Notes under the pieces: model-generated | Database searches by the model: none | The model's input: only the letters and a program-made list of their open reading frames with translations | What the model was told of the DNA's origin: nothing | Part shown: one piece after another, positions 23,350-57,110 of the stretch | Layout: each line of letters starts with the position of its first letter | How positions within the stretch are numbered: position 1 is the first letter of the stretch | NCBI GenBank assembly: GCA_030248195.1 | Contig: JASAND010021340.1 | Location: forward strand, 1-64,000 | Reading direction: 5' to 3' | DNA from: Trissonchulus latispiculum | Taxonomy: Eukaryota; Nematoda; Enoplea; Enoplida; Ironidae | Length of the DNA: 64,000 bases | Made by a program: the position numbers and the translations under genes

Positions 23350-25100
23350 GTTTGCTATCTTTTGCACAGGGCCTACAGCGGCTGGTTGAGCCAGCTGGAC
23401 CATTAAGGGAGAAATTAATGAGATTTGCCCCCCAACTGATTTTTGATGGATATCGGGCTGCTGAAATTCTGCAAAACTTTGCGAAATTTTGGTTAACATA
23501 GAAACGTAACCAAAGGGGAAATACTGTGAATTTCGACTACTTTTCATTAATTTTATGCAATCTGTGTAATTTTCAAAGACTTAAATAGGGATCTCGACAT
23601 ACTACGTATTGGGTTAGATGTGTTTGACTAATTTTCATAATAATTTAATTATGGGGGAATAATTTAAGCCCCCTCCGAACTTTGCGTGTGTGTAAAATGT
23701 GTGTTTTATTGTCTTCTATTGAGGCGAACTTTTGTTGTCCTCCTCTTGTTGGACTAGGCCCAACAAAAGTTCAAGATCCTTGCTTCTTTTTAAGCAAAGT
23801 AAGATTATGGAATATAAACTAATCTTACTAAAACATTTTCATCTGTAACTCACTCAATTTTGGGAGTTAAAACGTGGGGATTGCATTTTTGGAAATGGGA
23901 GAAAATTCTCTTTCTTATGAGCCTGAGTTATATCATCGACCAAAAATTCATTCCTTACGTAATAATTAGCTAATTAAGGTAAAATAAGCCAAACTAACAC
24001 TAATTAACACTATTAATAACAAATTAAGACCTAGGAACATTGTAAAACACGAATTATTGCAAATTTACGCACTTAAGTACTTATTACGTATTATTTCTTA
24101 AGTACGGCATAATTATGTGATTATTTTGCTAAACCATCTTCTAATATATGTTATTAAACAGCAAAAATGCTTTAAGACACTACTAACAAGGATTATTGCA
24201 TTCTCCTCCACTAGAAATACTGAGTTCCTTCAGTGATAGTTCTACATTCTGATTTTTATGCCAACACTGGAATTCCTGGACTTTTATGATTCTTTTTTTG
24301 CATTATCTTTAGCAATGGAAGAGAAAGTGACCGCACCCGGGTCACTCAGGGAAAGGACACCTGTCCTTTCAAGGAGGGGAATTTCAGGGATTGACCTTAT
24401 TATTATTGTTATAATCACCTCAAGTGTAATATGTCATGATTTTGAGCAAAATAATCCTAACTAGGCTTTAGAGTAGACCTTTTTTAAGTGTTAATAATGA
24501 AATAAACTTAAGCTTTTCCTCTCGTAATAACGATTAGATGCTTAATTGGGACTGGCAACTCTGATTTTAGCAGATATACAATCACAATTAATTATGGCTT
24601 GGACACAATATCATGACTAAAGCTTAATATAAGCAGGACCTTTAGGCTACATCTTCTGTAGAAACTTCTTTTGGGATGATTACTAGCTTGCAACTGATTT
24701 TTTAACTGCTTTTGAACAAAAGATTTAAGTTATTCCATTACAACCTGCACAAGAAAAATGGATGGGATTTCTGCTAAGGGGAATAAACCAAAAACATTGA
24801 CTAATCTCCTTCATAACATCATTCATCACACATCATAACAGTTATCTTCACTTCTGATTCACGATTACTGACAATTCTTCTACATAATAATCCTTTGATC
24901 AATCAAGGTTAAGACCAATAAAGAGTACTCTACATGTGCTCTGTTTCGTGCTTGACGTACATCCCAGTTCATGTCATTATTCCTTTCGTAGACTATTTTC
25001 ATACTTTATCATACTTGCCTTCTAGGGCTTACTAATTATACTCCTCTATTATGTTTGCTCCATACATTAAGCTGTTACTTCTTTTTCTTCTTTCTTTTAT

Positions 25101-25416
25101 AGGTGGGGTCGACCTACTATGGATCAGCTCCGCAATCACTATAACCTTCGAAACGTAAACTAATTTGCATATTCTTTTCAGGTGGGGTCGATCTACCATG
25201 GATCAGCTCCGCAACCACCATAACCTTCGAAACGTAAACTAATTTGCATATTCTTTTCAGGTGGGTCGATCTACCATGGATCAGCTCCGCAACCACCATA
25301 ACCTTCGAAACGTAAACTAATTTGCATATTCTTTCAGGTGGGGTCAATCTGCTATGGATCAGCTCCGCAACCACCATAACCTTCGAAACGTAAACTAATT
25401 TGCATATTCTTTTCAG
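25101..25416. repeat. Four-copy 79-bp tandem repeat with octamer motifs
   Basis: Units begin at 25101, 25180, 25259 and 25336 (79, 79, 77 and 79 bp). Each runs from AGGTGGGGTC through GGATCAGCTCCGCAA and CCTTCGAAACGTAAACTA to ATTTGCATATTC and a pyrimidine-rich TTTCAG. Each has one perfect ATTTGCAT octamer (POU-type site) and ends like a 3' splice site. Another octamer lies near 22030. The minus-strand frame over it changes phase between units, so it is not a repeat protein. Confidence 0.85.
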
Positions 25417-26311: not shown

Positions 26312-27587
26312 CTAACTGCTCCAACGAGGGGGAGTGTAATCTTCTTCCTCATAGTAGAAGGGCTCGGGTGATTCCGTGAGCCATCTCAGATAGTCCTCCA
26401 TTTGTTCCTCCAGTGTAGGAGGGTCACACTCGAAGCAGGCGCAAGGGAGAGTGTCTGGCGGAGGGTTAATCGGTTCGGGCTCTTTTTCTGGCTCTTTGGC
26501 TCTGCAAAGAAGCCGTAATTCCTCAATTTGACGCCAGTATTCTCGGGCTGGAATGATGTCGGCTTCTAGACAACTTCGAAGGGCTTGAGTTTCACGGATG
26601 TCGTAGTTGGGGACGTCATGCCGCCAATCATCCGGTACTAGGGGAGGCGCCATACCAGGCGGGGGGAGTGGGTCCAAACTGTCGACCAAGGATTCCGGAA
26701 GGGATTCAGGTTCGGTTTCCTCTTCAGATTCGGATTCGGGTTCAATCTCCTCAGCATCTTCTTCCCGATCCTCCTCTGCTGAAAAGTCCTGGTTTGGGGA
26801 CTTGGGGGGTGTAATTGGAGGATAGGGGCGGTATTCATTGATCATAGTGGGATAGTTGGGCTCCGGCCCAAACGGAGGTGGGGGATAATAGGGCTGTGGA
26901 TTTTGAATTTCAGGATTGTTGACTATCTGCACGATTTCTTTACGCAGATTCTCCAAGGAAAGCTCTGTCTCCAGGCGTGTCATCAGACTTGTAGGTGTTG
27001 AGCGCGAAAATGCGGAAGGCCGCCTGGATGTGATGCTGAACTGTCGTGTCAGGATGGATACTGACAGCATTATCTGTATCAATTTTAGCCTTTCTGAGAC
27101 GCAAATCGGTATCATCAAACTTGGCCTTGAAACCCGGATATTGCATGGCAACCGGGTACTTGTCTTCCTTGGGAAACATCTCTAAAAGACGTTCGGCCCC
27201 ATACAAGTATGGCTCATGATGAGGGTGTTCATTCAGATTTTTTAGCACTGTATAAGTGCCTAACCAATGTGGCACTTTGACTGGGCAGCGGGTGGCTCTT
27301 CGCTTCTGTCCCGGTTTGGATAAAGGGACTCCACATTGAGGGCAGAGTGCCTGACCATTTGATGAGGGTGTACAGGACGTGGGCCTGTAACCAAGATATG
27401 GCTGGGCAGGTTGAGGACTGACTGGCACTCCGACGGGAACTGGGGCTCTGTGTTGAACAGTTGGGGAAGGATCTGTTGAGACGGAATAAATGCCCCATTC
27501 TATTAGGGCTTCTCTGACACGATTCCGCTGAGGTGGTTCCATAGGATCATAGGTATTAGGAGAGGGATTGTTTTCCTTATTTTCCAT
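26312..27587 (-). pseudogene. Retroelement-linked ORF B, Pro/acidic-rich, frameshifted; function unknown
   Basis: Two overlapping minus-strand frames make one broken ORF: 27587-26940 and 27151-26312, with a frame change near 27000. The first part starts MENKENNPSPNTYD and carries a possible zinc ribbon (CPQCG...CP, residues about 83-101). The second part is rich in proline and in Glu/Ser runs, then has a Cys cluster (CACFEC) near its end at WSS. Base composition is higher in GC than the flanks and coding-like. It lies downstream of, and on the same strand as, the pol and OTU remnants, so it probably belongs to the same element. I do not recognise the family; a gag-like or accessory protein is possible. 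Confidence 0.5.
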
Positions 27588-27884: not shown

Positions 27885-29355
27885 TAGTTCAGCGGCGTCT
27901 GGCTTCTTGAAGGGCGGTCCACGGGAACGAGGTGGGTCCCGCAAAGAAAGGGACATCAGCGAAGGGACGGAGGGTAACCTTTTTGGGGGAAGTGTGTGGG
28001 ACCTTTCTCTTGGGTGGATCTGGGATTTTCGTCTGGGGCTCCTTGGGTTTCGAGGAGTTGTCGGGTTTGGATTCAGGGTGACGGGGGCGGTAGATAGGCG
28101 AGTCTTTATGGGGCCGGTTACTGAGGTAAACGGATAGAGGGACCCGCTTCAAGGAAGTGGCCGTCCAGGACTGATGAAGCCTCTGATTGGAACAGAGGGG
28201 TAGGGCATGCCCAGTTGGGATGGCCACAGGATCCTGGGGCCGGAAGTGGATGCCGTGAATCATAGATGCCGGAATGTGTAGCATCACCATACTAATCCGG
28301 CCCAGGCAGGATCGTTCTTCAGGGTCTTCACGGGGTCCACTGAGTCTGGGACATAGACCAATGTTGGCAGGGCCCGGATCATGGGCACTGATTCCATGTA
28401 GGGTGGGACATCTTTGAACTCCTGATGGAGTCGCATGGTTTCGTCCCGGTAGAGATCATTGGTGATTCTGTGGATGGTGGTGTCAATCTCCGGGACCACC
28501 ACAATTCGGGTAAGCAATGGCGAACGGATTGCCAAAGCCACCCGGAGACACGGACGGGGGTAGCCTTGGTGATGGGGAACATCAGTAGTTCTGACGTTCC
28601 GGCAATTTCCCTCAATAAGGCTAGGACTTGGGGATTCTGGAGGGCGCATACTCCAATCACTGCCACACGGGGACGTACGGTATAAATTCCTTCAGGGTCC
28701 TTCAGATAGACCCTGAAGAATTCGAGCAGCTGGCCGAGCATGTTGGCGGCCTGGTGGGAGGAGCAATGATCAGACGCCTCCTGATCAAGGGTTTTCTTTG
28801 ACACTTTCATCTCTCGGATGCGAAGGTCAAGCAGTTCCTGGTGGATCCCCCAGAAACGGTTTCTGGTGGCCTCCATGAGGCGACTGTCTCGGGTCGCCAG
28901 CAATTCCTCCTTGAACATCGGGATGGAAAATTTGGCAAAGAGGACAGCACCCATTATGAGGGTCTTGAAGGGATAATGATGATTGGGGTTCATGAGGAGT
29001 CGGCTAAGCTGACCATCCTCATTTGTCAATCGTTTGGCCTACTGGAGGGCATCAATTTTAAGGATCTTGTAGGCGGTTGAAAAAGATCCTGTCAGAAAGG
29101 CAAGAATTGCCTGATAGAGATTCTCAGTCGTGAAAGCGGCCTTGTTCCAATGGCGAATCATGATGGGATCGCCATTTGCATCACGGCCTTCGACTTTGGC
29201 GAAGTTGGACAACTTCTTATGTTGGGTGGCATTACTTCTGAAGTAGATGTAATGTCCAGGACTGTCAGGATGGTAAGGGAGTTGAAAGAGAGAGACAGTC
29301 TCCTCAACTGTTCAAGGGAGTTCTGATGAATCACTGCGGCATTGATGTTGTTCAT
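27885..29355 (-). pseudogene. Retroelement-linked ORF A, frameshifted; function unknown
   Basis: A coding-like stretch broken across frames: 29355-29158, 29029-28379, 28649-28284 and 28290-27889, implying three frame changes. It starts MNNINAAVIHQNSLEQ and ends ALQEARRR before a stop. The middle reads as a helical soluble protein (around LLMNPNHHYPFKTLIMG and NMLGQLLEFFRVYLKDP). The C-terminus is Lys/Pro-rich and basic. It lies between the OTU ORF and ORF B on the same strand. I recognise no domain. Helical then basic composition would suit a nucleic-acid-binding structural protein, but that is a guess. Confidence 0.5.
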
Positions 29356-30154
29356 CTAGAATGCAAGAAAACCACATAGAAATAACTGTCGAACCATAAC
29401 AATCATTCCTCGATTTACAACATTGGGCTCGTTAAGAAATACCAATTTCTTAGTTCGATTTGCCAATTAGGACAAGGACCACCCGTGATTTCCAAAAGTA
29501 TACCCGAGAATCGTGTATGTGTAGTTACAATATAAATTTACATATGTAACATAAATTAATACAGTTAATAACACAGATTGTTATTATAAATACAGTTAAT
29601 TATGCATACTTGATAATAAGATTAAGAATTAAGGTACAACATTTACATACATCAGTACATGTGTGAGACGGGAAGGAAGGGCATGGCTTGCTATTGGCAA
29701 CTCTGGTTTACACTTCCTGACTAGATTCATTCACAAGTTCATGCATATACAACAATTATTTATACCCTTGGAACACATTCCATAATTAAAATTCTACTAC
29801 ATCTTCTAAATTAAACTTTACACGAAACTGCTAATCTTAAATGTTCTGTCCATATTTTTATATTATTTTTCTAAATATATTTCTTTCTATGCGATTTTCT
29901 TTGTTATCATATGGGGAACGACATTAGAGATTTACACATAGACAATTTGTTTATTTAAAAGTATGTTATTTTGCTATTAATTTGAGATTACTAATTTTGA
30001 ATTTACAAACAATACTTCTCTTAGTGGTTAAATCGTTCAGAATATAAATATCTCATATTACACGATTAGTAAACCGATTTACATTCCTAATAGTCGTTCC
30101 CGGGACAAGAGCTTACATTGAGTTTGCCCCTAATTACAAACAGTATTTTACATA
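29356..30154. other. AT-rich spacer between the OTU ORF and ORF A
   Basis: About 800 bp with much lower GC than the flanking frames and no ORF. It could hold regulatory or untranslated sequence of the retroelement. No LTR copy was recognised. Confidence 0.4.
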
Positions 30155-30958
30155 CTAATTTTGCCCGTAGGGCTTCTGGTATCTTCGACCAGATCTGAGT
30201 ACTGAGGACCAAGAACGGATATTCTCTCTAGCTTGTGTTGCTGCTAATCTGGAAGGTTTAGTTTCTTCTAAATCTTGGGATGGGACTGGATAAGTATCAT
30301 AGGACTGGTTGGCTTGTGCTTCTGGGGGCGCCTGTGATGGTATTGGAAGAAATCTGGCAGCTGCTAGACGGGGGGAGTTGATATCTAGTAATTCTTGGTG
30401 CGGGGTAGGACGGAGAGCTTGGGACCAGGATTTCAGGATCTCTGGACTTGTAGTATGGAACGGCTTCAAGGGTGCTTTCTCTATATCCAGGACCAGCATA
30501 TAATGATTCTTGTTCACGTGCCAAATATAGATTGAGCGAGGATCAGGGTCAATATCTGATCCTAAAAGCGCGGGGTATGGTTGGACCACATCCAATAATT
30601 ATCTTGGGGATTCACATAGGTTGCGATCGGGGTGTTCAACATATTTGATGCAAGGAATATCTCTATTTCTGTAGCAAAGGTTGCAGGTCTTGAAATAACT
30701 TCTGGATCATATCTTTTTGGGGCTTCGAGTCGCTGTATGGCTTCCTGAATTCTGGGGTGATGATCGTAATAATCTCGCATCAATTCTCGGACTCTTAGAT
30801 GACGGTCTTCACCACCATAGATGGCAGCTGATAGCACTCGATAAAAGCAGTTGCCGTCTGCTCTTACGTCGAGCACCACAGTTGGATAAGTAAGGGGAAT
30901 ATCCTGGCCCCAATCTTGGAGGTGAGGATTAGCCGTGATAGCAACATCTCCTAGTCGG
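30155..30958 (-). pseudogene. OTU-type cysteine protease domain linked to Gypsy-like pol
   Basis: OTU proteases cleave ubiquitin-type linkages with a Cys-His-Asp centre. The frame opens near 30958. The motif ADGNCFYRVLSAAIYG (about 30861-30814) is the classic OTU active-site block, with catalytic Asp and Cys in DGNC. HLRVRELM follows. After a frame change near 30580 a second frame (30595-30155) has WHVNKNHYMLVLD, fitting the OTU catalytic-His block. The tail is Pro/Ser-rich. It follows the integrase ORF by about 55 bp on the same strand, so it looks like the next protein or the C-terminus of pol. The frame break argues that this copy is dead. Whether the active parent cleaves ubiquitin or a self polyprotein cannot be told. 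Confidence 0.72.
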
Positions 30959-31013
30959 TTTAATTAATAATTATTAATAGGAACCCAAGTTAGTAATACG
31001 GGAGCTTCGGCAA

Positions 31014-33733
31014 TCAGCTCAGGATCTGAGGTGTTATCTTCCACATCACTGTATTGGTCAATGGGTTTTCGTATGTCAGGAGAGGGGTTCTTCTCTTTCT
31101 GGAAGTGCGTGATTTCTTTTCAGGTTCTGATCCTAGGGTAGGGGCCGTTGATAGGAGGTCTTCATCTGAACTGACATCAGCATGGAGGTTTGGATCTCCT
31201 TCCATTTGCTCGGTCAATTGGTCTCCTGGGGACAGGGGAAGCACATGAGGTGCAGGGACCGGTTTCATTCGTCTAAAGTTGACTTTGTGTATCTGGGCTT
31301 TACGTGAATTGGCCAGTCTGAGATCAGCCACTGGTGGATGAACATCAATAATTCGGTAGGGTCCACAGTAGAAGGGTCGTAGTTTATGGCTCACATTCTG
31401 ACCAGCTTTCTGAGGTGCTTGTACCATTATCAAATCACCTGGCATGAAAGCAATTTGACGGACACCGCGGTTGTAGTTCCTTTCCTGGGTGATTTGGGCA
31501 GCTTGAATGTGATCCCTTGCGTATTTCCAGGCTTTCCTTAGCTCTTCGGAGACTTGAGCAACATAATCGGGAACGTGATGCAATTCTGCTGGTGTGATTA
31601 ACTTGTAACTGTTTGGGAGGGTAGGATCCCATCCATGCGCCAGATAGAATGGGGTTCTCCGGTTGAGGCATGAACACTGGTATTGTAGGCAAAGGTACAG
31701 TAAGGGATCATCCTGTCTCAATCGATAGGTTCCTGTACAGTGGTGCGCAGCATGTGCTTAAGGGTGCGATGCCAGCGTTCATTACTGCTAGGATTGTATT
31801 TAGTGGTTTCCACTTTCCTAACATCAGCTAGCTTACGGTTTGCTTTGTTCAGCGCTGATACAAACTGGACTCCGTGATCACTGACCAATTTTCGAGGGGC
31901 TCCAAATTTGAGTAGGATGCGCTCAACGAACACGTAGGCTGTTACTAGGGCAGTAGCAACTCGGACAGGGACAGCCACCACATATTTGGAAAAGGCGTAT
32001 GTGAAGGAAATCACATACCGGTGACCGTGAATTGATGGTCTCCTCATGTCCATTATATCCACGTGAATTCGGTCAAAAGGTTCCGTGGGAGGAATAGTAT
32101 GTAGATGGGCATTCTTCCTTCGATGAGGGGCTTTGTGTACCATACAGATCCGGCAAGTGTTTACCCAATCTCTGGCCGATGCCCACAAGGAGGGTCACCA
32201 ATAATTTCTTTGAATCCTTGAGTGCGTCCGAGCGATTCCTAAATGTCCAGCAAAGGGACTGTCGTGGGCAGCCAATAATATATGTTTCCTGAGAGGCAAA
32301 GGTACGGCAAGTTGTCGGTTGGTTTCTTCTCGGCTTTTTGACAGTCGATATAAGACATCATCATCAATGATGAATTCTGTGGCTGCCGCTGCAATCTTAA
32401 CCGCTTTGGTGAAATCTGTGGGCAGGATATCGTGGACGAGGTATTTTTTGATGTCGGCGAAGAAAACATCATTTTCTTGCTGCTCTATTAGGCGATCCCA
32501 TATGGTGTTGGTTTGGTACAGGGGTCCTTCGATGGGAATATCTTTCCGTTCTTCATATTCCTTAGAAGTAGCTGGCATTTCCAGCTGATTTTCGTTTTCC
32601 GTAGTTTTGAAGCGAAGAAATCAGCGTCCTATGATCCGGATGAAATGGATTCAGGACTGTGTTGGTTTGGTCCTTGGGAGGTTCTTTCGTGCTCATCCTC
32701 AATAGGGTTACTTTCTGGGTCTTCATTCTTTTGAGAAGAGGTGGAATTTGAATCTATATGTCCAGGTTCAGCTGAAACATCTTGTATTCCTAAGGACTTT
32801 CCTTCCTGGGAGGAACTTTGTAGATCTAGATCCTTCTGTTCTTGTGCGTCAGCCAAATTGGAAGCCAGTTGAGCACCTTTCCTTGGCTTTTGTAATGTAC
32901 TGAGGGCTTCTTCCACTTCCTCTCATGCTTCTTTAAGGATCTGGCGGCGTAAGCCACAGGGTGTTCCTTCCCGTCCTCCTGATCTTGTGACAGGACTGCT
33001 CCCAAACCAAGGTCAGAAGCATCAGTATGTAGGACAAATGGGCGGTCAATATCAGGATAGGCCAACACAGGTGCTTCTTGTAGGGCTTGTTTCAATGTCT
33101 CAAATGCTTTCTGGTGGGCTGCATTCCAAGTGAACTTATTTTCCTTCTTCTTGAGTTGGTATAGAGGGTTAGCCAGTGAGGCAAATCCCTTGATAAACTT
33201 GGCATAGTAGGCACACATCCCGAGGAAACATTCTACATCCTTTACGCACTTGGGTTGGGCAAATTCTTGTATGGACTTAATCCGATCAGCCAGGGGTTCT
33301 ACTCCTTTAGCAGAAATAGTATGCCCCAGATACTTTACTTGCGTCTGTAGGATCGAACATTTCTCGGTATTCAACTTTAAATCGGCTGCTATTAATCGGT
33401 CAAAGATCTCTTGCATGATTTCAAAATGTTCACCAAAGTCCTTGGAAAAGATCAGGATGTCGTCGATGTAGATAATGCATTTCTTCCATTGTAGCTCTCC
33501 TAACACTCGTTCCATACATCTCTGAAAGTTACCAGGTGCTGACTTTAATCCGAACGGGAGCACATTGTACTCGTATTGTCCATGGAAAGTGATGAATGCT
33601 GCTTTGGCCCTGGACTCTTCATTTAGCTCTAACTGATTGAATCCTTTGTTCAAATCCAATGTACTGAAGTAATTAGCTCCTCTCAAAGCAGCCAGTATAT
33701 CATCAATCCGTGGTAGGGGATAAATGTCAGGCT
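31014..33733 (-). pseudogene. Ty3/Gypsy-like pol: reverse transcriptase, RNase H, integrase (degenerate, 5'-truncated)
   Basis: Read right to left. The RT frame (33686-32826, open to about 33733 with PLPRIDDILAAL) has FSTLDLNKGFNQLEL, VLPFGLKSAPGNFQ and the catalytic YIDDIL at residues 73-78, then RNase H start FVLHTDASDLGLGAVL. RNase H stops after a frame change near 32910 and gives way to an acidic linker (to 32629). Integrase resumes at 32578 with an H2C2-type zinc segment (HDSPFAGHLG; CRIC at 32155-32144), then core Asp in HVDIMD, Asp in SDHGVQF and Glu in NERWHRTL. The Asp-to-Glu spacing is three residues shorter than D,D-35-E. The last frame (31721-31014) has the GPYRIID module near the C-terminus. 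Gag, protease and the RT N-terminus are missing beyond 33733. Confidence 0.9.
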
Positions 33734-33989
33734 TTCAAGAAAATTTATCGATTTTGCAGTATATAAACTTTAAATTTTTCTGTCAATGTTTCGGTACGCT
33801 GTGAATTTCTATTATACAGCTAAGCCACAACCTTGGTTTTAACAATAATTTCACAGAAATTTTTGAAAAATATTTTTAAAAGTTTTGAATTTTCTGTCAA
33901 AAATTTGCTAATTTTTCGTTACTTTGTAATAACACGGATATCCGGATATTATTCTCAAATCGGATACAGAGGTCGGGGAAAAACCAACC
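33734..33989. other. AT-rich junction right of the pol breakpoint
   Basis: The coding similarity stops abruptly at about 33733 and is replaced by A/T-rich unique sequence. No LTR or TSD is visible at the break. Confidence 0.4.
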
Positions 33990-34446
33990 AAAGCAAGGGA
34001 CGAGCATAGTTTCCTTTGGGGGGGGGGGTTGGGGGGGGTATCCCCCCCAAAATTTTTGACCAAATTTATCCCCCCCCCAGATTTTTTGACTTACCCTCCC
34101 CCAACTATTGGCTACCCCCCCCCGAACCCCCCCCAACGATTTTTGGACCCAAAAAGTTAGCTAAATTTGGTCGAAAAATGGTCATTTTTTGAAAAATGTT
34201 TCTAAAATTTTGACCTAAAATCGCTTTAAAACGGTGCAAAAGCGCCTAAAACGTTAAGAACAAGCCTTATTTTGATGAAAAAAGGGCTAAGTTACAGAAA
34301 ATTTTGCATTTTTTGGCCATCTTTCGAAATTTCTGAGGACCGAATTCTGGGACGGGGGTTGGGGGGGTACCCCCCATCACATTTCGGAGGTCGGCCAAGA
34401 TTTACCCCCCCCCCCCCCCAAGACCCAAAGTTCCAGGGAAACTATG
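33990..34446. mobile_element. C-run-rich TIR repeat (GCATAGTTTCC family), copy 1
   Basis: Starts GCATAGTTTCCTTTGGGGGG and ends CCAGGGAAACTATG, so the extremes are inverted. Its interior (TTTTTGACTTACCCTCCCCC, CTAAAATCGCTTTAAAACGG, AATTTCTGAGG) recurs at 34975-35372 and 49085-49502. It is non-coding and contains G and C runs up to about 13. Confidence 0.65.
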
Positions 34447-34974
34447 GGGACGAGGTCTGAGGATAAGCTAGCGGGCTCAAACGTAGGTGTACCAGGCTAC
34501 AGTTTGCCCCCTGTGAGACCCCCCCCCACGGAAAGGCCAGACACCCCTCTCCCCTACCCGACCTCAACTACTCCCCCCCAAGCCGAGCTCAAACCCCCCT
34601 CCCCCCTAAAATTGGGTCCAAACCAGGTAAAAAATGCAAAATTTTTGAAAAATTTTTTGCAATTTCTGAATATTTGACGCTGTTTAACTTAGCCAACCAG
34701 TAGGTGGTACGCAGTATAACCATTGGCAGGCTGGAAGTACGCTGTTGCGTACTTTAGCGTACCACAAGTTATTTTTTGCGTACCTTCTCACACAACGAAG
34801 TACGCAGACTTAAAAATTTCTGGGGCAATTTTAGATAAGCGTACCAGTAGCTAACAAGAACAAAACATTTAGCATCAAAGAAATTTTATGTTGTTGCGTC
34901 ATTTAGCTACATAGCAGATTATAGATTTTAGGTACAACTTTTGTGCCAATTTCTGTATAAATGGATGCATATAA

Positions 34975-35372
34975 ATGGTGTTCCCCCCCAAAATTTTCGA
35001 CCAAATTTATCCCCCCCCCCCAGATTTTTTGACTTACCCTCCCCCAACTTTTGGCTAGCCCCCCCCGAACCCCCCCAACGATTTTTGGAACCAAAAAGTT
35101 AGCTAATTTTGGTCGAAAAATGGTCATTTTTTGAAAAATTTTTCTAAAAATTCGGCCTAAAATCGCTTTAAAACGGTGCAAAGACGCCTAAAACGTTAAC
35201 AAGCCTTATTTTGATGAAAAAAGGGCTAAATTACTGAAAATTTTGCATTTTTTGGCCATTTTTCGAAATTTCTGAGGTCCGAATTCTGGGGGGGGGGAAC
35301 CCCCATCACATTTCGGAGGTCGGCCAAGATTTACCCCCCCCCCCCAGACCCAAAGTTCCAGGGAAACTATGG
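34975..35372. mobile_element. C-run-rich TIR repeat, copy 2 (left end missing)
   Basis: Same interior as copy 1 in the same orientation, ending CCAGGGAAACTATG. The left terminal GCATAGTTTCC is absent. With copy 1 it makes a direct repeat about 1 kb apart. Confidence 0.6.
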
Positions 35373-35990
35373 GTGGGGGTACCGACGGAGGGGGGGCGGG
35401 TCCCAGAAAATTGCCCAAAACCCCCTAACTTTTCGATTTATCTGTCATTTTTGGCCAAATATCTGAGGGGCATAGGTGTAACAGAGATTTTGATTCAAAA
35501 ACTTCGACTTTTAAAATTTTTTGCAAAATTTACCCTGAAAATACTCAATTTTTGGCCGTTTTTCGCTCCTTCTAGGCGCGAGTATCCCCCCCCCCAGTTG
35601 GGGGGGACGTCCCCAAGTTCAGGGAGGGGGTTGAGAAAATGGCTGGGGGGGGGGGGGTTCACAGGAAATTTGTCATTCTGGTGTTCCCTCCTTAACTCAT
35701 CTACGGCAACTCTAAGCCCTCGCCCCTGTCCCCATATTTCAACTCAACAAACAGGGCCGTATGGAAGTGGGGGTGGACTTTGGGGTTCCTCCCTCCCTAT
35801 ATATTTGTCTCTTCCCAGAATTTTTGACTTATTCTCTACTCCCCCACTTTTGTGCATGGGTGCAAGGTGTAAGGATGGGGGTGGAGCGATGGGATGCCCT
35901 CCCGTAAGAATTGCTTAAAATGATATAAAAATGCAATGTCAACAACATATACATATACGTATGTATAGTCACTTAATCTTTGTCTATTTC
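35373..35990. other. G/C-run-rich low-complexity DNA
   Basis: Includes a run of about 13 G at 35646 and C runs near 35586. The frames here are low-complexity and carry no recognisable domain. Confidence 0.4.
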
Positions 35991-38868: not shown

Positions 38869-40925
38869 ACAAGAACCAAAAATGCTCCTTCGTCGCATGT
38901 AAAATACATATGAGTACTCTCAGGCAGGTTGTACAAACGCGGAAATTAGTCTGTAAAATGCATATGAGTGGCGTTGAGATTGTAAATTAAGGAAAACAAG
39001 TTGCAACGGCTTAACATATGAGCCTGTCCTACAACGAGGCTCATATTGGCGTATGTCATAACTCATAATATAATTTGTCGATATTTGACCTTCATATAAA
39101 ATGCACGTAAAGCTTTCATTACAAAATTGTCCTTTACACATCTTGTCGCTAAGACATTATACTGTGCATACGCATTATACGGCATGCCACTCTGCGCTCT
39201 GATTCAGAGCCAAGTGGGGAAAGCATTACGTATGTGAGAGTAGTGTGTCATAGTGTTCCGAGAATACAGTAGGTGTACTATAGTGCTTCCGGAAGTAGTA
39301 GGTGCCATGGTGTTTCGGGAAACATCTGCTTGCATGTACAGTTAAACTTGAGGTGTCGCAGTTCACTTCGTTCAGTCCATTTCTTTCAGGCCACAATGTT
39401 AACATATTATAGCAAGCTTAACAAAAAAAATCAAAATTCGGTTTTTTGGCTGGAACTTTCGCAAAACTAAACCAAATCGATTACTTTGAGGACCCATGGA
39501 TAGGTCTTGGGCTAAGCTTTAAAACCACCCCAGTTTCATTGCTCTACGACGTATCAGTAAGCTGCAGTAGACGAAAATGTGTGATTTTTTTGTTAAAGGT
39601 TTAACAAAAAAAATCACCCGTTAACAAAAAAATCAGTGGCGGATCGGATCCCAGAGAGCAGCTAGCAAGTTTTTCTCATCAGTTTTGGATATAGCGCACT
39701 AAATAACGTATTTAGAACCCCAAACCGCTAACCTAGTGCCCCAACTAAGGCAACTGACCCCGCCGAAGTCTTAGTGGTCACTGATGGGCCCCCAACAGCG
39801 TCCAGTATGAAGTCTGGTGGCTTTAAAGTGCCGTTTTAAAGGCTAAAACGTTGTTTTTTCGTGTTTGTGAGTGATTATAACCTATTTCCAGGCATTTTGG
39901 CAGAGAAACTCAGAACTTCTTATGTTGCTTGGGTATGACCCACGGTCACGTGACCCCTGCCGGACCCGTCCGTACCCTCCAGGTACCAACTGGACAGTCC
40001 AAAGTGGCTATAAACATGTCCTAGGGGGTTTTCGAGGGCGCTGAATTCAAATCTGGCATTAGTTTTTAGGTAACTATGGGCTAATACGGACTTCTGGGAT
40101 CACGTTTACCGTCGGACGGTCCAAGCCCGGCTGGTTACCAGGTTGGACTCCCAGAAGTGTCAGGCAACCTCAAAAACAACTTATATAAGGGTTTTCGAGG
40201 TCGCTGAGCTCGATTTTGACGTTAGTTTTGCTCTACCTGCTGTTCTGACTTCGGTAACGAAACATAAAAATGATTTTTTATTTGTTAAAATTTTAACAAA
40301 AAAAATCACCCACCCCAGGACGGCTCAGAGGTCCGACTGGGAACTTCTATATATGTATCGATAGCCCACAGTCAGGACATGTCACATGCACAATATGGGT
40401 TGCCTAGGGTTTTCCCTTAGTAAATAGCAGCCGAAATTCGAACTTCGGTCATGAACGTTTTTGATGTCACTTTTGGGTACCCTCACTTAAAGGTCTGCCC
40501 TGAACGCATGGAGAGAGCCTAGGGGCTCAAACTCACAGGCTGTAATGTCGAGATGTGTGGCTATCATCATGCAAAAAATTGGGTCTCTGCGCCTTTCCTG
40601 TGAGTCAGGGTGGGGTGATTTTTTTTGTTAAAATTTCGAGTGATTTTTTTGTTAAGCTTGCTATATATATATATATATATCTATTCATTCGTTTTTTCTT
40701 TAATATGATGATCTGATGATCTTTATCGAGGCTTCACTGTGCCGCCAATATGAGCCTCGTTGTAGGACAGGCTCATATGTTAAGCCATTGCAACTTGTTT
40801 TCCTTAATTTACAATCTCAACGCCACTCATATGCATTTTACAGACTAGTTTCCGCGTTTGTACAACCTGCCTGAGAGTACTCATATGTATTTTACATGCG
40901 ACGAAGGAGCATTTTTGGTTCTTGT
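38869..40925. mobile_element. TIR element with ACAAGAACCAAAAATGCTCC ends
   Basis: Inverted ends of about 185 bp (38869-39053 and 40742-40925) match almost perfectly. The terminal motif is nearly that of the element at 41016-42058. It contains a second inverted-repeat unit (39408-40665). No transposase frame. Confidence 0.85.
39408..40665. mobile_element. Nested TIR element with TTAACAAAAAAATC motifs
   Basis: The ends are TATAGCAAGCTTAACAAAAA and its inverse ending AAGCTTGCTATA. The motif TTAACAAAAAAATC or its inverse recurs at the ends, near 39580-39635 and near 40285-40310. The rest is non-coding with no similarity that I know. Confidence 0.7.
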
Positions 40926-41015: not shown

Positions 41016-42058
41016 ACAAGAATAAAAATGCTCCGATGGAGCATGAAAAATGCAATATGAGTGACACTGGGTTTTAAACAGACAGAGGACTAGGTTTTAA
41101 AACGTTAATAATATGGGAGGGGCAGGTTGTAAATGCCAGGAGGACTAGGTTAAAAGCGCACTAATATGGACCAGCTTCGCTGAACAACCCATATTCGCGG
41201 AAATTGTCCAGGCAAAAATGCTGGCGGCAATCGTTCAATAACAGTTTAACAATTTGTCGGCACGACTTTGCAGCTATTACTATATACGTACATATAGTTG
41301 TGTTCGTAATACTTAACATTACATAATTAATACAACTTACAACACAACTTAATTTAATTAATTTAATTAATGCATATAATCCAACACTTAATACAACATA
41401 TATAAATAAATATATGCAGTAAAAATTGGTGTCACAAATTCCGCTCTGGTAACTCACTATAAAACGCTTGAAGTATATAAAGCATAATATTTCAAAATCA
41501 GCAAGCTCACCTGGAAAGCTGACGAATTTAGAACTTAAGACAATAAAGGTCAAATGCGGAGTGGAGCATGCGTACCCGCGAATATGGGTTGTTCAGCGAA
41601 GCTGGTCCATATTAGTGCGCTTTTAACCTAGTCCTCCTGGCATTTACAACCTGCCCCTCCCATATTATTAACGTTTTAAAACCTAGTCCTCTTGGACATT
41701 CTTTCCCAGGTTTGCCGCTGTCGTCCTGGCCTGGCACGCCAGGTGGAGGGGCGGTCGGAAGAAGCACCGGTAAGGGAGACGTCTCCGGTCCATTCGGGCT
41801 GTCCAACCATCCACCTATATTTCCTCGCGCTTCCAATGGAGGTCTTTCCGCACGAGCTCTGAGTTCAAGATTAGTGAAACGGTCAGCCAGCCTTAGCCCA
41901 AGATACGACGCAAGCTCATTTTCGAAACCTGGATATCGCACGCGTAAGGGCGTGTCCAGCCCAAAGCGTACGACTGCCTGCTAGTCCTCTGTCTGTTTAA
42001 AACCCAGTGTCACTCATATTGCATTTTTCATGCTCCATCGGAGCATTTTTATTCTTGT
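41016..42058. mobile_element. Palindromic TIR element with ACAAGAATAAAAATGCTCC ends
   Basis: Arms 41016-41190 and 41575-42058 are near-perfect inverse copies and share the terminal family of 38869-40925. The right arm is longer only because of an insert at 41693-41981. The end also folds locally (GCTCC-GATGGAGC). Confidence 0.88.
41693..41981 (-). pseudogene. Captured GC-rich coding fragment inside a MITE arm
   Basis: The insert is 289 bp with much higher GC than its host element. It is flanked by an exact 9-bp repeat TAGTCCTCT (41684-41692 and 41982-41990) that occurs once at the same site in the other palindrome arm, so the insertion is certain. The minus strand is open through the whole insert, with protein-like content (YPGFENELASYLGLRLADRF, then Pro/Gly-rich). 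I do not recognise the source gene. No poly(A), no terminal inverted repeats. Confidence 0.6.
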
Positions 42059-48993: not shown

Positions 48994-49087
48994 GCGCATA
49001 GTGTCACAAAAGTATACGATAAATGCTATACATACATAGCTAACTTCAGGCTTAGAAAGGGTACAGTGGAAAGTTAGTCATCGTGGG

Positions 49088-49502
49088 CATAGTTTCCTTT
49101 GGGGGGTTGGGTCTCAAAATTTTCGACCAACTTTACCCCCCAGATTTTTTGACTTACTTCCCCCAACTTTTGGCTACCCCCTCCCCGACCCACCCCAACG
49201 ATTTTTGGACCCAAAAACTTAGCTAAATGTGGCCGAAAATAATCATTTATTGAAAAATGTTTCTAAGATTTGACCTAAAATCGCTTTAAAAAGGTGCAAA
49301 AACGTCTAATACGTTAAAAACAAGCCTTATTTTGATGACAAAAGGGCTAAATTACCGAAAATTTTGCTTTTTTGGCCATTTTTTGAAATTTCTGAGGTCC
49401 GAATTCTGGGGGGGGGGGGGGTTGGGGGTACCCTCCATCACATTTCGGAGGTCGGCCCAAGATTTGCCCCCCTCCCCAGGCCCAAAGTTCCAGGGAAACT
49501 AT
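49088..49502. mobile_element. C-run-rich TIR repeat (GCATAGTTTCC family), copy 3
   Basis: Complete copy matching 33990-34446 in order and orientation, from GCATAGTTTCCTTTGGGG to CCAGGGAAACTAT. Confidence 0.7.
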
Positions 49503-52724: not shown

Positions 52725-54235
52725 AGCCTAATTTTTTACTTTGGGTGACATTAATTTGCCCAATATAAACTGGTCTGCTGGTACATTGCCTACATGTGAA
52801 CTTAGTTCGAACTGGTATGTGAAAACGATGGAGATGGGGTTTTCGCAGTGTGTTGACAAACCAACACACATAAACGGAAACATACTAGATTTGGCATTTT
52901 GTAATGATGAATCTAATGTGACCATTCTTGCGGTAGGTGAACCTTTTGCCAATTCGGACTATTTCACGGTTTCAATCCAGCTTGGTCCTTTCAAGTGCCG
53001 TCAAAGTCCTGAGGGTACAACTAAATTTTTAAAATCGTACAGCAAATCATGCTCAAATTTGCAACTTTTTAGAATCAACAAACTGGGTGGAATTGCTGGA
53101 AGTGGAGCTCCATATTGACAGTGTATGGTTAACTTTTAAAGACAAAATAATGGAATGTATTCTGAATTATGTACCCTTATGTGATTTCAGTAAAGGCAAA
53201 TGGTCACACGTAACTGTTAAATTACTTAAGCGTCAAAAATGTTTACATAAGCGATACAGAAAGCAACATTCACACAGTTTAAAACGTAAAGATATCTATA
53301 ATTTTGAAAGTAAAATTTTAAATTCGAAGAATTAATTAAAATTTTGAACATATGGAAAGTCAAACCTGTCCCCAAACTATGAAATTCCAGTCATAAAAAA
53401 TTCTGCAAACAAAATCTTAGGTGATTAGATTATATGAGCAAGGCTAACGAATTTGATGATTATTTTGCATCAGTTAATTTCAAATATACTGATAGCATTT
53501 TTGATCTTGGTCGTAGAACAGATAAACGTTTGTCGGGTTGTACCTTTAGTCCCTTTGTTGTTTTGAAACTCTTGAATTGAAAAATTGAAGCCTAAACTTA
53601 GCCTAGGCCATGATGACATACCTCAGTGACTTCTGGTAAACTTTGCTGAACAGTGATCATTTCCTGTATCATTTATATTTCAGTATAGTTTCGAAACGTC
53701 AGCTTTGTCTGAAGAATGGAAATTAGCGAAGTTAATACCTGTTAATAAAAAAGGAGACTAACCCAACTCTAAAAATTATCTGTTAGGCTTTTGTGTTCTT
53801 GCGCTATAGGTAATGGAATCAATTATAGATGAAGCTTTGATATTGAAGAAAATTAACTCATTTCTAAAAGCCAACATGGTTTTCGTGCCAGGCGATCAAC
53901 TGCAAGCCAACTTTTACAAACTTAAAATGATTGGACCAGACTGATTGATTTGAAAAAGGCTATTGATGTTCTATACTTAGATATTGCAAAGGCATTTGAC
54001 TCAGTTTCACATAAAACTTTATTAAGCCAACTTAAAAGCTATGGTATTGTTGGTAAAATGTGTTTATGGTTTGAAAATTATTTACAGAATCGTAGACAAT
54101 TTGTCCAAATTAAAAAAGCTAAGTCAATGATTCTAAATACAGCTTCAGGTGTACCACAAGGTGGTAGCATTGGACTTACTTATACTTTTCTTCATATATA
54201 TTATATGATATCAAATATGATGATTTTTAAGCCAC
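52725..54235 (+). pseudogene. LINE-1st copy ORF2: endonuclease end and reverse transcriptase start (Jockey/CR1-like)
   Basis: The endonuclease (52741-53118) shows GDINLPNINW, CVDKPTHINGNILDL and a terminal NSDYF where the family has SDH, so the catalytic His is changed. A linker follows (53087-53335). RT blocks: EEWKLAKLIPV (about 53708), SQHGFRARRSTASQLL (about 53870), LYLDIAKAFDSVSHKTLLSQ (53971) and GVPQGGSIG (about 54150). There are many stops and frame shifts. Coding similarity ends at about 54235 at an insertion and resumes at 59770. Confidence 0.85.
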
Positions 54236-54239
54236 ATGT

Positions 54240-57110
54240 GAACGGCTATCCGAGTCCTGGAGATGATTTCTGCTGGCAGCTTATCCCACAGTCTTGCTAC
54301 ACAAGGAATAAAAGCTAATGAGTAGTCCTTGGCAGTGTGGGACCACACGGGAAAAGGGATTCACTTCTAGTCTCGGGATCGCCTGGCATGTTGCAATGGT
54401 GGAATTATGGATTGAACAAGGGCAGGCCAATTCCCACAGACTGCCTGATGATAGAAGGTGTCCACATTTGGACGATGCTGTGGCGAATCCAGTCGAAATG
54501 TAGGGAACAGCCGCTTAGCTTTTGCTTGGACAGAGTCTAGGGCAGTTAGGGTATACCTGGAGCATTTGTCCATAGAGGGGAACAATAGTCAACAATTGAT
54601 CTAATTGCGGCTTTATAAACATGATACCTGGCTCTTTCGGACAGAAAGGCAGCCATTAGGCGTAGCATTGACGTGAGTTTGCCCGCTCTGCCTTTTCTGA
54701 GTTCTTTCAGAGTTCTGCCTTTTCCATAATGCGACTACCCCACGAAACTTGTTGTGACAAAGTTAGTCCAAGCAGCTTAATTGATGTCATCATCTCATCC
54801 ACCTCCACATGCCCAAACCTTAATGCTAAGATGTCTGCTCGATCATGCCTCCTTGAAACTAGGAGGGATTTAGTTTTGGCCAGGCTGGAGTTAAGTTGCC
54901 ATTTCCTTGCCCAATTACCGGCAAGTCTCCTTCCGGCGGAGCGTGCACAACCTTCCTGTCGGCCTTACGAGCAATTTTAGTAGTGGGGGTGATGTCTTAT
55001 GACAACGTCGTTGCCTATATTTTCAGGTCATTGATGTACAACAAAAATAAGATCGGTCCAAGAATAGATCCCTGGGGGACACCAGCGCCTAGAGCTGCAG
55101 GTCGCGATGGAGTCATCAACAGCAACCGACTACACCCTGCTGTCCAAGTAGCCAGTCAACCATTTCAAATTTGGTCCATCAACACCATATTTGAGTGCTT
55201 GTGTAGCAACCCTCAATGCCACACAGTATCGAAAGCTGTTGCTATGTCCAGCCAGACCAGTCGTACTTCCTCATTTGCATCAAGGCCGGCTTCCCAAATG
55301 TTGGAAAGGTGCAAACAGGCACGGACGGTTGAATGCCGTTTACGAAATCCGAACTGCACATTCGCCTGGAGACTCTGCTTTTCCAGGTGATGGGAAAAAT
55401 GGTAAGCAATGTACTCTTCCATGACTATGGAAATCAGGAGCAGCAAGGCAATAGGTCTACAGTTTTTGGGATCGGTTTTACTTCCCTTTTTGTGGATAGG
55501 TACAACTTTTGCATTCTTCCAATCTGCTGGACAAACACATTCCTGCATAGACTTGTTAAAGCAGACAGCGGTCCAGCCAACTCAGGAGAACAGTTCTGCA
55601 AGAGGGTGGCAGGGATTTCGTCCAAACCCGGGGCTTTAGAACAGTCTAGACGTCGCAAAAGCTTGAGTACGACGTTCTCCGGCAACAGAATCGGTGGCAT
55701 GGACATATTGCAGCGTCTACTAAAGTAAGGCAACCGAGTATTTGGCGAGCGCAATTGGACTCAGCCGAGAAGGTACTGTTCAGTAGCTCAGCTTTGCTGG
55801 CAGAGGCAAGCTCTTCTCCAGAGTCGGTATACAAAGGCGGGATCATTGTTGTCACACGCCTACCCAGCACGCTATTGACTTTTTGCAACCAGACCCTTCC
55901 TTCACAACGGTCGATGTTTTCTGCAACACTGGAGGCCAGTTCGTTTTGAGTACACGATTATGTCGATTCCGGATGGATTTATACACTCGTCGATCGTCAA
56001 TGTTGCTGGAAGATTTCCATTGCATCCACGCTCCTTTCTTCTCCCTAAGAAGCTGTCTTAGTTCAGAGTTGTTTGTTCTTCTGCGGTTTAATAACCTTCC
56101 GAGTAGCTCCATTGCAGTACTTATAGTAGACTTCAATGAGTTCCTAGAATACTCCGTAGAACCATCCATAAGACTGTTCAAGTCTTGCTCAGCTAGATAT
56201 AGTCGGATGCTGTCCCAGTCCACTTGACTTAAACAGTGTACGTCTTCGTAGGAATGTCCCCAGAAACAGTTGAATGGGTTGCTGCCTCGACACAAACAAT
56301 GGCATGATCTGAGGTGCCAATAGGTACCTGGCAACCACAAAAGCAAAAGCAGTCGCAGTCCGCAATGCACAGATGGAGTCTCGGACATTCTGGTAGGCTC
56401 CGTCACTACTTGGGCGAGTCTGTTTGCGGCAGGCTTCGCAAGCAACTCCGGCATGATTCGTAGGACCTGAGAAACGCAACGAGGAATAATTTTGAGTGTT
56501 TGGTGGCCCAAGACTGCAAAAGCCGCATCTGGAATTCTATTGCTCAACATATCAACATATTCCATATCGCGATCTAATGCCTAAAACAGGTGGTTTGAAC
56601 TATTAGGCCTTTGGTAGCAAAGAGCAATGACCAGTGGACGCCGTGAGGCGTTTATCTTAACCCACAGGTACTCCAATTCAGGATTGTCCACAAGAAGAGT
56701 ACACGGCATGTCTCTTTTGAAGTGAAACATGTTTCCTCCGCCATGACCTTTCCTGTCCTGTCAAAATAAGAGTAGCCAGGCAAGTATCACTGATGGAAGA
56801 ACGAAGGAAAGTTTCATTTACTGCAATACGGCTGTTTTGACAGATGCCACATGTCTTCGGTGGCGTAAAGCATCGAGATTTCCATCCAACCAGCGAATAT
56901 TGGTAAACCAGCTTGGAACACCTTGCTGGGCCCAATCAGGGGCGAACACCCGTTGCCGGTTTTTGTTCGCCCCGTCACATTTGCCTGTTACGCACGACGT
57001 CTGACCGCTAACCTTGCGATTTGGGTTTGTAACAGTCTTAACAGTCTTCGTGTGACCAATCGTAGCTAGAAAAGAAAACTCCTATGGGTGAGTTGGGCTG
57101 CCAACCCATC
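54240..57110 (-). pseudogene. LINE-2nd copy, ORF2 on the minus strand (endonuclease and reverse transcriptase)
   Basis: Read right to left. The endonuclease start region is near 56990-56870 (NKNRQRVFAPDW, GVPSWFTNIRWLDGNLDAL) and its middle near 56730-56620 (GHGGGNMFHFKRDMPC, INASRRPLVIALCYQRPN). The linker is 56220-55880. RT blocks are CSKAPGLDEIPATLL (about 55640), ADWKNAKVVPIHKKGSKTDP (about 55530), FGFRKRHSTVRA, WLDIATAFDTVWH (about 55250) and AGVPQGSILGPILFLLYIND (about 55070). A C-terminal tail is recognisable to about 54370 (DSVQAKAKRLFPTF). Frame shifts and stops are present. GC is higher than in the plus-strand LINE it interrupts. Confidence 0.85.

Follow-up and report, generated by a model that had tools for sequence, protein, structure and literature searches.

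We identified a broken retroelement carrying an OTU-like cysteine protease domain in the nematode Trissonchulus latispiculum (Enoplida, Ironidae; GenBank assembly GCA_030248195.1, contig JASAND010021340.1). The stretch analysed, hereafter the window, comprises positions 1 to 64,000 of the contig, and the element lies on its minus strand between 33734 and 30155. In the coding direction it contains a reverse transcriptase (RT), the first part of an RNase H, an integrase and the OTU domain, in this order, on a single strand and in a single coding-like block. Our proposal is that the locus probably derives from a Ty3/Gypsy retrotransposon in which pol ended, past the integrase, in the OTU domain, and that the present copy has decayed and lost its 5' part.

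The RT and the first part of the RNase H are encoded at 33734-32826 (-). Pfam searches of this piece returned RVT_1 (E 3.1e-32) and RT_RNaseH_2 (E 5.6e-28), the latter spanning only profile positions 1-73 of 100, and the RT motif YIDDIL can be read directly. The closest solved relative of the piece is the RT of Ty3 (4ol8, E 2.4e-51). The coding sequence starts within the RT domain, indicating that the element lacks its 5' part, where gag and the aspartic protease would be expected. A hydrophilic linker with no recognisable domain follows (32904-32552, -). The second half of the RNase H was not seen in it, and a Pfam search of the piece 32922-32629 gave no matches at E up to 10. Past the linker, at about 32551, similarity to one of the Gypsy-like loci described below (L011, 21% identity) begins.

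The integrase comprises an N-terminal part with an H2C2 zinc segment (32620-32195, -; Pfam Integrase_H2C2, E 2.1e-9), a DDE catalytic core (32194-31718, -; Pfam rve, E 2.0e-8; match to the prototype foamy virus (PFV) integrase, E 1.7e-6) and a C-terminal part with a GPY motif and an acidic tail (31757-31014, -). The last of these matches SH3_Tf2-1 at E 7e-5 with 23.3 bits, under the cut-off of 30, and the letters CGPY of the GPY/F motif typical of Ty3/Gypsy were read directly in it. An initial annotation, made from the sequence without database searches, had described an RT with YIDDIL, the start of an RNase H, and an integrase with a zinc segment, Asp/Asp/Glu and a GPY module; the profile matches and motif readings agree with it throughout. 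The element shares with Ty3/Gypsy (Metaviridae) an RT and a partial RNase H of Gypsy type, the H2C2, DDE and GPY modules of the integrase, and the order RT, RNase H, integrase, with a damaged junction between the last two. It differs in having an OTU domain at the C-terminal end.

The Cys part of the OTU-like domain is encoded at 30963-30562 (-). It matches the Pfam OTU profile (PF02338) with an E value of 1.7e-6 and 29 bits, above the curated cut-off of 23.3, over profile positions 1-88 of 128, and the DGNC block that the initial annotation had picked out (30858-30847) falls inside the matched stretch. A phmmer search of the Cys part against PDB sequences gave 14 matches with an E value of 1 or lower, the best of them at 0.0012. 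Half of these (7 of 14) were counted as OTU proteins: OTUD3, OTUD1, OTUD7B, OTUD5 in two matches, and a pair of viral chains that carry the name RNA-dependent RNA polymerase and that we take to be viral OTU domains. The OTUD3 and OTUD1 matches are weak, and the other seven (haemoglobin chains, MukB and designed proteins) look like chance. A structure model of the OTU piece from the single sequence was useless (predicted local distance difference test, pLDDT, 34.6).

A His block with a proline-rich tail follows at 30598-30155 (-), in a frame that differs from that of the Cys part. It was read by eye, with the letters SIYIWHVNKNHYMLVLD and the His codon at 30505-30503. Between the Cys codon (30849-30847) and this His codon lies DNA for about 115 codons, a spacing that fits OTU domains. 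The piece 30598-30155 matched none of the Pfam profiles at E up to 10, and its single match among PDB sequences is not an OTU protein. The matching His block of the initial annotation is thus visible by eye in another frame but is unsupported by profile or PDB matches.

Several features connect the integrase to the OTU domain. The stop-to-stop frame of the OTU domain starts at 30963, on the same strand as the integrase frame, which runs to 31014; the distance of 50 bases from the integrase stop is close to that of about 55 bp given by the initial annotation. Beyond one single stop, the OTU frame continues upstream without interruption for at least 45 codons and so overlaps the integrase tail; there is therefore no stop-rich gap between the two. 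Third-position GC is similar across RT, integrase and OTU (0.39 to 0.48, with the phases of two segments shifted by hand), and the codon-position GC of the His-block piece resembles that of the Cys part after a manual phase shift. Overall GC drops from 0.46 to 0.30 at 30155, that is, only past the OTU domain. The order of the two domains is that found in a single protein of the DNA transposon Ginger1, but the frames here are now broken. We take integrase and OTU to be one coding-like block ending at 30155 that was formerly one reading frame, or nearly so, and is now broken. The Pfam order, the open frame and the base composition all bear out the earlier view that a Gypsy pol is followed directly by OTU on the same strand.

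The copy is dead: the frames shift or stop several times from the RT to the end, the second half of the RNase H is missing and the 5' end is gone. The truncated 5' end lies near two of the three plus-strand copies (34004-34448, 34982-35373 and 49087-49502; 84-91% alike) of a repeat of about 400 bp with long runs of C or G. Directly after the pol-OTU block lies an AT-rich stretch of 755 bases (30154-29400, -; GC 0.30, compared with 0.46 ahead of it and 0.51 in the NADAR-like block that follows), which could be a 3' long terminal repeat (LTR) and is a candidate for that or for a 3' untranslated region. No second copy of this stretch (29300-30155) beyond 14-base matches is present in the window.

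Comparison of the RT piece with a protein collection identified 1877 proteins with E values no higher than 1e-10. The top-scoring one is 49% identical, and all of the 120 listed carry a Pfam RT domain. We also took 21 Gypsy-like RT loci from prokaryote genome contigs, where they are most likely eukaryotic contamination; an integrase core is present in 16 of them. The input to an RT tree, of the kind that the initial annotation had proposed, comprised the 120 listed proteins together with 15 of these loci; of 136 rows, 135 were kept. The RT of the window pairs with P0097, an RT protein of Caenorhabditis japonica according to its UniRef name, with a local support of 0.987, but the nearest sequence by branch length is P0004. 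The pair with P0097 recurred in a reduced tree (63 of the 135 rows), in which its support label was lost on rerooting and the P0097 branch has a length of 1.0. Long-branch attraction is possible in these trees, and we therefore report the pairing but draw no clade from them. Searches of viral contigs with the OTU, RT and integrase C-terminal pieces, an RT alignment, and the NADAR-like and last open reading frames (ORFs) described below found no confirmed relative, with the single-protein queries reaching only close relatives. Phage records gave no OTU matches at E 0.01.

Several observations weigh against the proposal that the parental pol ended in an OTU domain. A pol with integrase and OTU is known from one copy only, which is broken along its length, and the junction between RNase H and integrase crosses a stretch without a recognisable domain. 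No LTRs were found in this 5'-truncated copy, with no direct repeat outscoring a control set of 30 size-matched random pairs in three comparisons, and the class of the element is therefore read from pol. No OTU-like motif was detected in any of the 21 Gypsy-like loci (forward ORFs of at least 150 codons, from the RT on), of which only 10 reach at least 2.2 kb past the RT, about what OTU detection needs, and 8 have less than 1.6 kb. A Pfam scan of the ORFs of 8 of the 21 loci likewise revealed no OTU; one of these eight has a chromodomain match just under the cut-off. Against the protein collection, the OTU piece gave 4 candidates, none at E 0.001, and the X-padded OTU sequence gave 191, none at E 1. 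Three-base periodicity at the junction is raised, at 2.3, yet does not reach the 2.48 that marks the 95th percentile among 163 background windows, and it is lower still in the RT windows, so that it backs continuity between integrase and OTU only mildly.

Two other explanations have to be set against this proposal. The block could be a composite, in which a Gypsy fragment cut within the RNase H was joined to a Ginger1-like integrase-OTU; the OTU would then be an ordinary Ginger1 domain. Ginger1 elements are DNA transposons that code for a transposase and are bounded by terminal inverted repeats (TIRs) about 40-270 bp long. They have a YPYY motif before the zinc segment, which is common to Ginger1 and some Gypsy groups, and their transposases can have an integrase followed by OTU (PMC2836005). 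Such a junction would account for the RNase H breaking off in mid-domain before about 350 bases without a recognisable domain. The integrase is also less similar to that of the nearest Gypsy loci than RT similarity predicts; for example, locus L001 matches the RT at 45.4% and the integrase at 31.2%, with 38.4% expected. In this comparison (105 pairs; of the 16 loci that have an integrase match, the partial L015 was dropped, leaving 15), the integrase of the window falls below expectation for 10 of the 15 loci but above it for the other 5, in every case within 1.8 standard deviations, and the underlying correlation of 0.94 leans on near-identical pairs. Against a composite, the YPYY pattern is absent from the linker, H2C2 and integrase pieces, each read in one frame. 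TIRs were not found: the best inverted match between 32480-34000 and 29300-30155 has 12 bases and 24.3 bits, against a median of 20.3 and a maximum of 28.2 bits in 30 random pairs, though a decayed copy could have lost its TIRs. RT, linker and integrase, moreover, lie on one strand in Gypsy order. Taken together, we consider a composite rather unlikely.

A chance junction appears even less likely. In that case, a Gypsy fragment would by accident have come to lie upstream of an OTU gene with no relation to it, or of a piece of some other element with an OTU domain, for example a Helentron. OTU domains do occur in several unrelated mobile elements, including Helentrons (PMC6431247) and the PolB of adintoviruses (PMC11071296); the window contains many repeats, and the periodicity at the junction does not exceed the background. 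Against an accident stand the shared strand, the lack of a stop-rich gap, the like codon-position composition and the drop in GC only past the OTU domain, as well as the position of the domain after the integrase, where Ginger1 has it (PMC2836005). By analogy, Ginger1 may also be counted as a precedent for this order in the Gypsy pol-OTU element that we favour.

If the parental element had this architecture, its pol domains and OTU were presumably made as one polyprotein, and the OTU was presumably active. Such a fusion would deliver the OTU along with the integrase. There it might strip ubiquitin from the integrase itself, or from host chromatin or repair proteins nearby, so that the integration complex would be spared the proteasome or repair of the site would be eased; given the architecture, we offer this role tentatively, at somewhat short of even chances. 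Deubiquitination in place would be the simplest reading, whether it protects integrase or pol or acts, where the element integrates, on repair factors that carry ubiquitin. A second possibility, which we think improbable, is that the OTU would cleave the polyprotein itself. The initial annotation had offered counteraction of ubiquitin-based control and polyprotein processing as possible roles. Both kinds of role are on record for one viral OTU protease, that of turnip yellow mosaic virus, which is said to cut the polyprotein of the virus and to stabilise its polymerase (PMC5967125).

About 0.85 kb past the end of the OTU block, on the same strand, we identified a NADAR-like ORF (29311-28379, -), absent from the initial annotation, in two pieces of one frame. 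The piece 29038-28379 matches PF08719 (E 3.0e-5; 24.8 bits, under the cut-off of 35.1), PHROG 1017 (E 3.6e-7) and TIGR02464 (E 0.0061), and the piece 29311-29039 has no match among Pfam, PHROG or TIGR profiles. A structure model of the NADAR piece reached a pLDDT of 38.7. Further along lie two overlapping ORF pieces (27626-26312, -), acidic and proline-rich, in which there is no convincing domain (best Pfam E 4.8).

A longer element, compatible with the pol-OTU proposal, would include these blocks. The OTU, the NADAR-like ORF and the last ORF would be 3' genes of one virus-like retroelement expressed via spliced RNAs, or the NADAR block would be the 5' part of a tandem copy sharing an LTR. All blocks are on one strand and broken, with AT-rich stretches between them, and a polypyrimidine-AG directly precedes the ATG at 29355 and that at 27587. 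NADAR domains have also been described in a Gypsy pol of Ectocarpus and in ORF1 of an oyster Tx1 long interspersed nuclear element (PMC12477816). The Ectocarpus element resembles the locus described here in having a Gypsy-type pol near a NADAR domain; the difference is that NADAR in the window has an ORF of its own, 3' of pol-OTU, with which it may have no connection. On the other side, the ATG at 29355 is out of frame with the NADAR piece as it stands, third-position GC is 0.59 in NADAR vs 0.39 to 0.48 in pol-OTU, the stretch 29300-30155 is not repeated elsewhere in the window, and the last ORF has no domain. We regard a longer element as doubtful. Were it real, it would be a retroelement with both ubiquitin-removing and ADP-ribose-processing domains.

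The window contains other repeats. Inverted repeats of 183 bp (38869-39051 and 40743-40925; 99% complementary, 1691 bases apart) may delimit a recent DNA transposon, and a second pair of 117 bp (41084-41200 and 41576-41692; 100% complementary, 375 bases apart) resembles a miniature inverted-repeat transposable element. At 25097-25416 (+), a unit of 78-79 bases occurs in four tandem copies that are 91-96% alike to the reference copy. An RT fragment at 53926-54318 (+; RVT_1, E 1.7e-7) is of non-LTR type by eye. Rfam gave no matches in the window, and ARAGORN, run with the bacterial code, found no tRNAs in it.

If the proposal holds, LTR retrotransposons would join the range of mobile elements known to have a domain of deubiquitinase type. 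Helentrons and adintoviruses, like the element described here, are a mobile element or virus bearing an OTU domain, but they are rolling-circle elements and PolB viruses, respectively, and the adintovirus OTU is on the polymerase rather than after an integrase (PMC6431247, PMC11071296). Among the portions of the open-licence literature covered (subscription papers and Repbase lay outside this scope), we found no LTR retrotransposon with an OTU domain, which is weak evidence of novelty. Further papers were set aside: the OTU gene of PMC11943222 is unrelated to the transposons described there, OTU in PMC6875170 denotes a taxonomic unit, PMC7926851 matched through an author's name only, and PMC12863088 showed no OTU.

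The closest parallel is Ginger1. The initial annotation had implied that the arrangement was new, but a Gypsy-like integrase followed by OTU is published for 7 of the 16 families of Ginger1 that Bao et al. 2010 list in their Table 1 (Hydra, Aplysia and pea aphid), and 8 of the 16 listed families have Ulp1 after the integrase instead (PMC2836005). These authors propose a role in repair during transposition for both OTU and Ulp1 (PMC2836005). The element in the window shares with Ginger1 a Gypsy-like integrase with H2C2, DDE and GPY modules followed by OTU, and differs in having an RT directly upstream of the integrase, Ginger1 being described as coding for a transposase. What may be new here is the RT and RNase H upstream of integrase-OTU. 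Bao et al. discussed a Gypsy retrotransposon as a possible origin of Ginger1; none of the Gypsy lineages clustered with Ginger1 at significant support, and they remarked that their data may lack the ancestral one (PMC2836005). Since YPYY was not found, the window copy is not shown to be that ancestor. We nevertheless raise, as an unlikely idea, that a Ty3/Gypsy lineage with integrase-OTU at the end of pol is the stock missing from this history, either as the source of the Ginger1 transposase or as an element that took it back. A Gypsy element already carrying OTU after its integrase is one possible look of the ancestor that Bao et al. left open (PMC2836005), and the question of ancestry thereby becomes testable with integrase and OTU trees.
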